This document shows positions 764 through 36,416 of a stretch of 36,416 nucleotides of DNA, piece by piece. Source of the DNA: a virus. Position numbers and translations under genes: made by a program. The notes under the pieces are model-generated. The model searched no databases. It was given only the letters and a program-made list of their open reading frames with translations, and was not told the DNA's origin. The first letter of the stretch is position 1. Every line of letters begins with the position of its first letter. The DNA lies in the IMG/VR virus record IMGVR_UViG_3300032333_000160, positions 1-36,416 of that record, one strand, 5' to 3'.

Positions 764-985
764 ATGAAACGCAGTGAAATGGTTAAGACAATCAAAAATT
801 TCTTTTATGACAATGATTTTTACAACTTTAATGATGAACACGCCGACCTGTTGTTAGACAAGCTAGAAAGCCAAGGAATGAAGTTGCCAAGTGAAAACGA
901 CAAATGGAAAGACGAGATGTTAGAAATTGCCGAAGCCATGAGACGTGCAAACGCCCTACTTCAAGATGAAACGCAAAAGCCATGA
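764..985 (+). CDS. MKRSEM-family small protein, copy 1 (73 aa)
   Basis: The start at ATG 764 follows a GAGG site that overlaps the SSB stop region. The protein begins MKRSEMVK, a motif shared with genes at 982 and 1385. It continues as a mostly charged helical protein with a central block (DLLLDKLESQGMKLP) that aligns with ILSHIESCGMCPP and LLTALEDAGMQPP in the other copies. No catalytic motif is visible and no function is known to me. It ends in an ATGA overlap with copy 2, so the two are probably translated from one message. Confidence 0.75.
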   Translation: MKRSEMVKTIKNFFYDNDFYNFNDEHADLLLDKLESQGMKLPSENDKWKDEMLEIAEAMRRANALLQDETQKP

Positions 986-1236
986 AACGTAGTGAGATGG
1001 TCAAAAAAGTATTGAAACACTTTGAATCACTTGCATATCCAATCGTCGAAGAAGCCGCAGATCGGATACTTAGCCATATAGAAAGTTGTGGGATGTGTCC
1101 TCCGCCGGTCTACTACGAAGGCAAGTTTGGTTGGTATTCAAAGCATGAATGGGAACCTGAAAATGCAACGCAAAATCATTCAACTTATTGTGACAACAAT
1201 GTGGAACTAGCAAGTGCTGAACGCCCTTTGCGATGA
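982..1236 (+). CDS. MKRSEM-family small protein, copy 2 (84 aa)
   Basis: ATG 982 overlaps the stop of copy 1 (ATGA). The N-terminus MKRSEMVKK is shared with the neighbours. The middle keeps the family pattern (ILSHIESCGMCPPP, then YSKHEWEPE), which matches CYDWEPE in copy 3. The last 24 or so residues after WEPE overlap the start of another reading frame at 1163 and look unlike the other copies. The gene may therefore once have ended earlier or been extended by recombination. Function unknown. Confidence 0.7.
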   Translation: MKRSEMVKKVLKHFESLAYPIVEEAADRILSHIESCGMCPPPVYYEGKFGWYSKHEWEPENATQNHSTYCDNNVELASAERPLR

Positions 1237-1321
1237 CGGCACAGTTTGGTTTTTCGGCGTTGATGAACAATGGCATCAAATGAAACCTATTCCTCAGGAT
1301 GAAGACAATGATCAGCATTGA
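1163..1321 (+). pseudogene. Small conserved phage gene interrupted by an in-frame TAG
   Basis: The frame from ATG 1163 starts MQRKIIQLIVTT and reaches TAG at 1208-1210. The same frame then continues VLNALCDDGTVWFFG, a lone W, then PIPQD, to TGA 1319-1321. I recognise the overall pattern (M-R-K-I-I-Q, then ALCDDGTVW, then a late IPQD) as a small protein family of environmental phages with no assigned function. A single C-to-T change from CAG would explain the stop. Other genes here end in TAG, so genome-wide TAG recoding is unlikely. Restart at GTG 1214 is possible. Confidence 0.6.
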
Positions 1322-1373
1322 GAAGCAAGCATCACCTGTCCAGGCTGACTTTGAATCCGACATTCCGTTTTAG
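1308..1373 (+). CDS. 21-aa ORF made of an SSB C-terminal tail
   Basis: ATG 1308 opens a frame encoding MISIEK followed by QASPVQADFESDIPF and TAG 1373. The last 15 residues are identical to the end of this phage's SSB, while six of the 15 codons differ, all synonymously, and the stop changes from TGA to TAG. The first residues match the start of the gene at 1980 (MISIEK). Such a peptide would carry the full SSB partner-docking tail without the DNA-binding domain. It could be a functional decoy or a recombination remnant of a second ssb gene. Expression is not shown by sequence alone. Confidence 0.5.
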   Translation: MISIEKQASPVQADFESDIPF

Positions 1374-1384
1374 AAAGTGATGTT

Positions 1385-1666
1385 ATGAAGCGCAGTGAAA
1401 TGTTAAAACTGATCACAGAAGTGTTGGAAGTGTTTAAAAGAATGAATAAAACCGACGACGAAACCAAAGCCGTCGCCCTGCTTACAGCATTGGAAGATGC
1501 GGGAATGCAACCGCCAGCATATCGTCTTTATTCATTAGATCGGGAATGGGATTGCTACGATTGGGAACCTGAAACCCTGCCAGGCATCACTCAAGAAACA
1601 ATCGACGACGCCCTGGAACACATCGGCAAGAAGGGTGTGTGCGGTGAAATGGAGATTACAGAATGA
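1385..1666 (+). CDS. MKRSEM-family small protein, copy 3 (93 aa)
   Basis: This is the longest copy, starting MKRSEMLKLI. It contains the family block LLTALEDAGMQPP followed by a Tyr/Trp-rich stretch, DREWDCYDWEPE, then an acidic helical end. It directly follows the SSB-tail ORF, just as copy 1 directly follows SSB, which suggests that tail plus MKRSEM gene were duplicated as a unit. Its stop overlaps the next start (ATGA 1663-1666). No function is known; the conserved Trp and acidic residues suggest a protein-binding or regulatory part. Confidence 0.75.
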   Translation: MKRSEMLKLITEVLEVFKRMNKTDDETKAVALLTALEDAGMQPPAYRLYSLDREWDCYDWEPETLPGITQETIDDALEHIGKKGVCGEMEITE

Positions 1667-1980
1667 TCGGCACTGAGATTGAAGAGGATTATACAACTTG
1701 GCCACGTCTGATTGCTGACTTGTTGAAAAAACTCAAAGCGAAAGACAAGATTGAACAAGTAGCCATTCAAAACAATCTGATAACGTGGCGCAAAGCACTC
1801 AAAACCCCAGCTTTTACGAAAGTGTTTTATGAAGGTTTTGGACGCACAGAGGGCGAACCATTTACAGCTTGGTCAAAGGAATGGGTTTACTTTCCTGTCC
1901 AATATGACGGACGTGAATCAGTTGGTCGGGTGCCACGCAATCCTTGCGCAATCAGCACAGAACATTTTGGTGGTGGATAA
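1663..1980 (+). CDS. Small conserved phage protein with VYFPVQYDG motif (105 aa)
   Basis: ATG 1663 overlaps the stop of the MKRSEM gene. The N-terminal half is helical and charged. The C-terminal half carries FTAWSKEWVYFPVQYDG and then VPRNPC near a Gly-rich end. I recognise this VYFPVQYDG...VPRNP arrangement from small proteins in freshwater and marine phage genomes, where it has no assigned function. The stop shares its last base with the next start (TAATG). It belongs to the coupled small-gene chain downstream of ssb. Confidence 0.75.
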   Translation: MIGTEIEEDYTTWPRLIADLLKKLKAKDKIEQVAIQNNLITWRKALKTPAFTKVFYEGFGRTEGEPFTAWSKEWVYFPVQYDGRESVGRVPRNPCAISTEHFGGG

Positions 1981-4508: not shown

Positions 4509-5120
4509 ATGGGCGTCTTGGGAATAGACTGCGGTAAATCAGGTGCGATTGCGTTCTACGATGGCGCGCACACAAAGTTCTATTCCATGCCTCTCAAAGA
4601 CGGCGAAATAGACATCCTCGAACTTAACAAACTGACTTTCATGTTGCCTTTAGACGTTATCGTCATCGAGGAACAAACATCCTTCGCGTCTGACGGACGT
4701 TTTGGCGTGTTTACTATGGGCCTCAACTACGGACGCCTCTTAGCCTGGGCAGAGGCACGCTGCAGCCAGCTTTGCAGGGTACGCCCACAAGTCTGGCAAA
4801 AGTCTTTTGGCATAGCCCTCAAGCATGAAAAGGGCATAAGCCAGACAGAACGCAAGAAAGCCACAAAGCAGGCAGCTTTAGACGCCCTTGTTGGCATCAA
4901 CCCTTTACTCGCAGAACAAACCTTCGGCCCTCGTGGTGGCAACCGTGACGGCATAGTCGATGCAATCTTGATCGCAATGTGGGGACAAAATGAACTACGA
5001 AAGTCTTATTGGCCTACTCGCACTGGCCTCGGGTGTTTTTCTGACGTTGTGTTGGCAGCTACACCAAAAGGCAGCAAAGGCCGTCAAGGAAGCAAAAGAA
5101 GCGGTGGAAAGCGTAGATAG
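4509..5120 (+). CDS. RuvC-like Holliday junction resolvase (203 aa)
   Basis: The N-terminus MGVLGIDCGKSGAIAFYDG has the first RuvC acidic residue (Asp7). VIVIEEQTSF supplies the second (Glu54 or Glu55), and RDGIVDAILIA supplies the last pair (Asp147, Asp151). VRPQVWQKSFG is typical of phage RuvC-like proteins. These enzymes cut branched DNA made by recombination and packaging. I chose ATG 4509, which follows GAGG, over ATG 4494. The last 44 residues are basic and low-complexity (GSKGRQGSKRSGGKRR) and overlap the next gene by 131 bases, so they may be a read-through extension. Confidence 0.88.
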   Translation: MGVLGIDCGKSGAIAFYDGAHTKFYSMPLKDGEIDILELNKLTFMLPLDVIVIEEQTSFASDGRFGVFTMGLNYGRLLAWAEARCSQLCRVRPQVWQKSFGIALKHEKGISQTERKKATKQAALDALVGINPLLAEQTFGPRGGNRDGIVDAILIAMWGQNELRKSYWPTRTGLGCFSDVVLAATPKGSKGRQGSKRSGGKRR

Positions 5121-34993: not shown

Positions 34994-35773
34994 ATGTGGA
35001 AACAACTAACAGACAACGAGTATTTCAATGAATATGGAACTTTCCTTTCCTCTTCTGATATTAGGCGTTTGCTTCGCAGCCCTGCACATTATCGCAACCC
35101 TGCGAAACTGGAATCGCCCGCGCTGGCATTCGGAAGTCTGGCGCACACGTTCGTACTGGAACCTTACATTGCAGAGGCGCGTTATAGGCCGCGCGCTGAC
35201 GTTGACGGCAGGACAAAGGAAGGAAAGGCCGTTCGTGACTGGGAAGCAAGCCTTGCAGCACAGCAGGGAATACAGTTCGTCAGCCGTGCAGATTACGACG
35301 CGGCGACTTCCATCGCCTCCGCAGTACGCACACATTTGGGGGCAAGCGCACTCCTTGCCGGTGGAATGGCTGAAACAGCGGGTGTCATTGATGGATTCCG
35401 CGATGTTAACGTCAGGATCAAGCCAGATTACAGAACAGACAAATATATCGTCGACCTCAAAACCACTACTGACGCCAGACAGGATGCGTTTGTCCGGTCT
35501 GTTGTGAACTTTGGCTTTGAAGTGCAGGCCGCTTTCTACATTGACGTCGCCTTAGCAATAGACGGCTTCAAGCGCGACTTCTATTGGGTTGCTGTCGAGA
35601 AAGACGCACCCTATGCCGTGGCTGTTTACAAGGCTTCAGACGAAATGTTGGAACGCGGTAGGCAACAGTACATCAAAGCGATTGAACTTTACAAAGAATG
35701 CGCGTCGTTGGATCTCTGGCCTGCATACTCTCAACAAGTACAAACCCTTGAACTCCCAGGATGGTTGAAATGA
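34994..35773 (+). CDS. RecE-like PD-(D/E)XK exonuclease (259 aa)
   Basis: Motifs typical of phage and RecE-type exonucleases are present: FGSLAHTFVLEP (His51), an acidic MAETAG (Glu127), KPDY (Asp145), VDLKTT (Asp154, Lys156) and FGFEVQAAFYIDV. Such enzymes resect double-strand ends to give single strands for annealing. I chose ATG 34994 over an in-frame start at 34880, which would lie inside the previous gene. Its stop overlaps the Erf start. Together with Erf and SSB it forms a recombination unit. Confidence 0.9.
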   Translation: MWKQLTDNEYFNEYGTFLSSSDIRRLLRSPAHYRNPAKLESPALAFGSLAHTFVLEPYIAEARYRPRADVDGRTKEGKAVRDWEASLAAQQGIQFVSRADYDAATSIASAVRTHLGASALLAGGMAETAGVIDGFRDVNVRIKPDYRTDKYIVDLKTTTDARQDAFVRSVVNFGFEVQAAFYIDVALAIDGFKRDFYWVAVEKDAPYAVAVYKASDEMLERGRQQYIKAIELYKECASLDLWPAYSQQVQTLELPGWLK

Positions 35774-36402
35774 AAGACATTTATCAGGCACTTGTCAAAG
35801 CACAGTCACAAATCAGAATTGCAATCAAAGACAGCAACAACCCACATTTTCGCAGCAAGTATGCAGACTTGGCGTCAGTCTGGGACGCAGTGCGCGATGC
35901 CCTGCACTCCAACGGCCTGGCTGTTCTCCAACTTTCAGACGTCGATGCTTCCGGCGTTCCTGTTCTGTTGACGAGAATCATCCACACAAGCGGCCAGCAC
36001 GTTGAAGGCCGTTACCCAATTGTCTGCAAGGATCCTCAAGATCCCCAGAAAATGGTCGCAGCGACGACCTATGCCCGGAGGGCGTCTTTGAGTGCGGCCT
36101 TGGGTGTCATAGCGGATGACGATGACGGCAACGCAGCAGCTGGACACACAACAGGTCATACAGCCCCACCAAGCGTTGCAAAGCCAGTCTCAGCACCAGT
36201 GGCAGCCAAGCCTCAGGGAAATGCAATGGTGGACCTGTTTGCGGCCCATAGGCTTGAATACCCAAAGGCTGTTGAGGATCTTGTAGGTAAACCAGTAAAA
36301 GACTGGTCTGAAAACGACAAGACGACAGCCAGGGAAGCGATCAAGAAACTGCAGGCTGGCACCCCGTGGTCACAAATCGTGAAGGACAAGGTGTTTTCGT
36401 GA
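35770..36402 (+). CDS. erf: Erf-family single-strand annealing protein (210 aa)
   Basis: The N-terminal sequence (MKDIYQALVKAQSQIRIAIK, then NNPHFRSKYADLASVWDAVR) and the later TTYARRASLSAALGV motif are characteristic of P22 Erf-family annealases. These rings pair complementary single strands and can circularise phage DNA. A Pro/Ala linker (residues about 130-150) precedes a C-terminal helical domain ending KDKVFS. ATG 35770 overlaps the exonuclease stop (ATGA); ATG 35761 is less likely. The gene runs through the window end into bases 2-109 on the circular map. Confidence 0.93.
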   Translation: MKDIYQALVKAQSQIRIAIKDSNNPHFRSKYADLASVWDAVRDALHSNGLAVLQLSDVDASGVPVLLTRIIHTSGQHVEGRYPIVCKDPQDPQKMVAATTYARRASLSAALGVIADDDDGNAAAGHTTGHTAPPSVAKPVSAPVAAKPQGNAMVDLFAAHRLEYPKAVEDLVGKPVKDWSENDKTTAREAIKKLQAGTPWSQIVKDKVFS

Positions 36403-36416
36403 TTATCGGAATCTTA
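36294..36416. repeat. Right copy of the exact 123-bp terminal repeat
   Basis: This is the second copy of bases 1-123. It starts inside the Erf gene and runs past its stop codon into the start of the next small gene, so the two window ends join seamlessly in frame. Confidence 0.97.

Follow-up and report, generated by a model that had tools for sequence, protein, structure and literature searches.

How does a viral genome come to encode the docking tail of its own SSB protein a second time, detached from the rest of the protein? The window analysed here, the whole 36,416-nucleotide stretch of an IMG/VR virus record (G000), contains an intact ssb gene and, downstream of it, a frame of 21 codons (1308–1373, reading MISIEKQASPVQADFESDIPF-TAG) whose greater part repeats the end of SSB. 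Such a frame could have evolved as a decoy peptide, or it could be what was left when two genes were joined. We find that its two halves derive from different parent genes, with the break at about 1324–1326, and that it sits within a doubled block of small genes. It is very probably an in-frame gene-fusion scar produced by recombination, and not an evolved decoy.

The resident ssb and its second tail

An exact direct terminal repeat of 123 bases closes the window on itself, so the record probably represents a whole genome, either circular or terminally redundant. Among named phages, a Silvanigrella phage has the nearest terminase, at 34% identity; IMG/VR itself supplied closer relatives, with terminase and capsid matches of 63–100% over the aligned part. 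The early region of these relatives has the order Erf, ssb, MKRSEM genes with other small genes, MISIEK. In the window the corresponding region runs across the record ends, where the Erf gene is followed by small genes, ssb and a further run of small genes to about position 2815 (Table 1).

Table 1. Features of the window and, in the last row, of related loci (L numbers)
Feature	Position	Strand	Evidence and remarks
Exact direct terminal repeat, 123 bases	1–123 and 36294–36416
Erf-like annealing protein gene	35761–36402		phrog_2324, E=2.4e-36
ssb, intact, 122 aa	388–756	+	Pfam PF00436, E=3.5e-16; phrog_44, E=3e-20; ends QASPVQADFESDIPF-TGA; Erf gene precedes across contig ends
MKRSEM-family gene, copy 1	764–985	+	Directly after ssb; alignment A3; ssb–MKRSEM adjacency also in L014 and L108
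MKRSEM-family gene, copy 2	982–1236	+	Usual short end lost; frame extends into the start of the following gene
Small MQRKII...CDDGTVW gene	1163–1321	+	In-frame TAG at 1208–1210; L107 alignment, 78%; codon alignment
Start region of the fusion frame	1294–1307	+	AGGA at 1296–1299, 8 bases before ATG; read by eye
5' end of MISIEK gene	1308–1324	+	17/17 bases equal L107 5001–5017
Second ssb, of which only the final 15 codons and the stop are present	1326–1373	+	40/48 bases equal 709–756; six silent changes
MKRSEM-family gene, copy 3	1385–1666	+	After the tail frame and a short gap; occupies the usual post-ssb MKRSEM place
MIGTE gene, unknown function	1663–1980	+	phrog_21631, E=9.9e-13; repeat families D3 and D8
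MISIEK gene, full copy, 63 aa	1980–2171	+	Alignment A5 with L003, L005, L013 and L014
Proteins with SSB-like tails, no Pfam match	L041:3670–3921, L050:3862–4110, L057:5609–5857, L066:2721–2954, L081:3076–3324

Codons 7–21 of the small frame encode residues 108–122 of the resident SSB exactly; six of these 15 codons (for Ala, Val, Gln, Glu, Ser and Asp) differ silently, and the stop is TAG where ssb has TGA, all of which the initial annotation had read correctly. When the DNA is aligned from positions 709 and 1326, the next-best place in the window, on either strand, reaches 26 of 48 identical bases, so that the agreement of the tails lies beyond chance, and chance similarity was rejected as an explanation. 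By the Nei–Gojobori count the 15 codons carry six changes over 10 synonymous sites and none over 35 non-synonymous sites. The acidic tip ADFESDIPF, with its [ILV]PF end, is the same in both proteins (ESDIPF being the last six residues), and SSB residues 1–107, with the OB-fold domain, are absent from the frame. A second in-frame ATG at 1299 gives a version of 24 codons; read-through of the TAG would reach a TGA four codons later. The idea that this phage reads TAG as a sense codon found no support; a search of the window for tRNA genes found none.

Two parent genes and a doubled block

The six residues preceding the tail have a parentage of their own. The six MISIEK codons open the genes of a small family, recognisable though unnamed (alignment A5), with relatives in L003, L005, L013, L014, L105, L107 and L108; identity to L107 at every base of this segment, together with the synteny there, rules out an arbitrary start or a part of the second SSB. 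In L107 the MISIEK gene is preceded by, and overlaps the end of, a small gene (MKRKII...CDDGTVW...DQH), and the same pair is present in the window at 1163–1325. The alignment of window 1159–1324 with L107 4843–5017 takes in this upstream gene and ends where the SSB tail starts, which places the MISIEK part in its native position. Of this family, the fusion frame thus keeps the 5' end, preceded by the usual upstream gene and start site; the resemblance ends after codon 6, and the rest of the protein, about 57 residues (NG, VCQ.E, S.N.AL), is missing.

Base by base, the sequence is MISIEK-like and not SSB-like over 1308–1324, and SSB-like and not MISIEK-like from 1326. Identity to the L107 MISIEK gene stops after 1324, and the SSB match, which begins at 1326, has no continuation upstream. 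The gene order of the relatives assigns the two halves to different genes, and each side of the junction is intact in different relatives, one in L107, the other in L014 and L108; none of the relatives carries the doubled block in full.

The right-hand side is equally well placed. The succession of SSB tail, stop and MKRSEM gene is the native order in L014, in L108 and at the intact ssb of the window, so that the tail and MKRSEM copy 3 are the 3' end of an ssb gene and the gene that natively follows it. Accordingly, ssb–MKRSEM–MISIEK occurs about twice as a block; of the second ssb only the final 15 codons are left, and of the first MISIEK gene only the first six. A doubled block is also expected to reverse the order of certain genes relative to L107, where the MKKSEM and MQRKII-like genes adjoin: the 3' half of MKRSEM copy 3 (1556–1666) matches L107 4740–4850 at 77%, a segment that directly precedes the MQRKII-like gene there, and in the window the two counterparts, at 1556–1666 and 1159–1324, stand in reversed order.

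Damage to the neighbouring genes fits a reshuffled region. The usual end of MKRSEM copy 2 (...EWEPEND-stop) is seen in L005 and L014. The MQRKII-like gene, whose 3' part matches phrog_16915 (E=1.9e-4), is open at the TAG site in its L107 counterpart (4847–5014), and the window copy is probably a recent pseudogene. Gene starts are themselves repeated in the region, three being ATGAAACGCAGTGAAATG-like and three ATGATCAGCATTGAGAA-like. The start of the MIGTE gene (1663–1700) also resembles the MISIEK start, with ATGATCGGCACTGAGA followed by IEEDYT, like IEEAET; judged by this resemblance, another fusion may have taken place there, again at a gene start of this kind.

Silent differences and the age of the fusion

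Does the exclusively silent divergence of the two tails call for selection on the small peptide? The yardstick was the final 15 codons of complete proteins with such tails, not all of them Pfam SSBs, in loci fetched by their Erf gene. The tails of L057 and L058 differ by six silent changes and those of L081 and L092 by five, neither pair showing an amino-acid change; L042 and L064 differ by one amino-acid and 10 silent changes. By this comparison, which applies to such tails in general, silent-only differences are ordinary for two intact homologues, and selection on a peptide is not required. Joining two diverged alleles can in this way leave silent-only changes that mimic strong selection, a trap for the discovery of small ORFs.

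The relative L107 provides a rough date. The divergence of the two tails amounts to a dS of about 1.2, a rough estimate on 15 codons, and that of the upstream segment from L107 to 0.39–0.58, a rough clock of few codons. Since L107 is unfused, the fusion should have come after this segment and that of L107 separated, and since the latter divergence is smaller than that of the tails, most of the silent changes should predate the fusion, which is presumably recent. Under the same rough clock of few codons, the probability of no amino-acid change since the fusion is 0.10–0.15 if its age is drawn evenly over the time since the window/L107 split, and 0.001 or less at the maximum age, that of the split itself. 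The former value is compatible with drift as well as with selection since the fusion. If instead truncation came before every one of the differences, and the tail has drifted since while SSB stayed under constraint, all six would be silent with a probability of 0.002–0.007.

Recombination scar or free peptide

We propose that the frame arose by unequal or illegitimate recombination between related phages or between copies. The left copy would have contributed ssb, two MKRSEM genes, MQRKII and the start of MISIEK; the right copy, joined at a point in the final 15 codons of its ssb, would have contributed the tail, MKRSEM, MIGTE and MISIEK. The silent differences would then record the divergence of two full ssb genes, mostly accrued before the join. 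The Erf gene lies adjacent to ssb, on its upstream side, and may have taken part in the fusion: Rad52-like phage recombinases, among them Erf of phage D3, efficiently recombine diverged DNA (PMC3945230). The locus shares with the mosaic junctions and gene remnants left by such annealing proteins (PMC3945230) the joining of related-phage genes near gene ends, the adjoining Erf gene and several short diverged repeats at gene starts (D1–D3); it differs in that the remnant is an in-frame fusion, with the whole SSB docking tail placed after a start site that looks functional. The AGGA, spaced from its ATG exactly as before the intact MISIEK gene of L107, makes translation of the fusion plausible, and the start site inherited from MISIEK may thus yield a peptide of 21–24 residues without any evolved function being needed.

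Several points count against a recombination scar. The lack of any non-synonymous change is somewhat unlikely for a fusion as old as the window/L107 split. An in-frame outcome is a one-in-three chance event; our guess is that short homology at ATTGAGAA perhaps aided it. The relatives yielded neither a genome with two full ssb genes nor one in which the second block is unfused, and the five SSB-bearing relatives have one SSB each, none with an intact second ssb at this spot. The search for a donor ssb in viral contigs returned nothing close; the pattern QASPVQAD matched nine frames, all other than SSB tails; the genome contigs searched held no relative of SSB or MISIEK, and the annotated phages held SSBs below 40% identity, with no DNA match.

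Could the frame nevertheless be kept for its product? Free of DNA, the tail peptide might sit in the pocket that receives the SSB tail, either in host proteins (RecO, RecQ, ExoI and PriA, for example) or in recombination proteins of the phage itself, and so shift recombination or repair in the phage's favour. The exact 15-residue tail with its ESDIPF end, the inherited start site, and the lack of any non-synonymous change, with the low probability of an all-silent outcome after truncation, speak for such a role, as does the activity of SSB-Ct peptides on SSB partners (PMC7913777, PMC5928155): the last nine residues of E. coli SSB are the main docking site and the free SSB-Ct peptide alters RecO assembly (PMC7913777), while the last six residues of HK620 SSB are required for stimulation of the annealase Sak4 (PMC5928155). 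The frame has the acidic last residues ending in D-I-P-F of bacterial and phage SSB-Ct, identical to those of the resident SSB, but it is a tail alone, without the OB fold and hence without a DNA-binding domain. HK620 likewise combines an acidic-tailed phage SSB with a recombinase of the phage's own, but there a full SSB carries the tail, and Sak4 takes the place of Erf as recombinase (PMC5928155).

Against maintenance as a free peptide stand the silent pattern of intact homologues, which is the same, and the gene order, which accounts for both halves of the frame. The low probability, moreover, presupposes that all divergence followed truncation, and the comparison with L107 argues otherwise. 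No stand-alone tail ORF of fewer than 70 codons was present on either strand of the other fetched loci, except one frame of three codons; tblastn in annotated phages gave no match; and the exact tail did not recur among 2.9 million viral contigs of IMG/VR, though these scans may have passed over records very near the window. Such a role thus seems unlikely. Of the two interpretations in the initial annotation, the one it favoured, an evolved free-tail competitor, gained no positive support, whereas the relatives support its alternative, that recombination captured a second ssb of which this is a remnant: in them, the 3' end of ssb and its usual downstream neighbour can be recognised as the sequence now joined to the MISIEK 5' end.

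That the scar has since become a new gene, translated into an untethered SSB-tail competitor, is a combination of the two ideas to which we give little credence; competition with SSB tails as a side effect of a translated peptide is possible but unsupported. Searches of open-licence papers found no description of a phage-encoded SSB-tail mimic or decoy, and if the competitor were real, the frame would be, within our limited search, the first natural stand-alone SSB-Ct peptide. Translation would in any case make it a clear natural example of recombination at gene starts giving a docking motif to a new ORF.

Alternatively, a single phage lineage might have duplicated the block in tandem long ago, lost most of the second ssb early and kept its tail since then by selection or conversion. 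This would account for the doubled block, for the high silent divergence of the tails and for MKRSEM copies 1 and 3 being only 36% identical. Conversion from the intact ssb, however, would also erase the silent differences, and the fusion must postdate the L107 split, which by the rough, few-codon estimate is younger than the tail divergence; we regard this history as very unlikely. A chimeric assembly, made from two related phages of the same metagenome, would explain why the junction unites parts that lie apart in related phages, but is highly improbable, as the record closes with its terminal repeat and the few bases that MISIEK and SSB have in common at the break are too little for the usual assembly overlap.

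SSB-like tails (DDDLPF, ESDIPF) also end several proteins of 77–83 residues encoded downstream of Erf in related loci (Table 1, last row). Those of L050 and L057 match phrog_18187, of unknown function, and the proteins are possibly an uncharacterised family of small SSB-like proteins or Erf partners.
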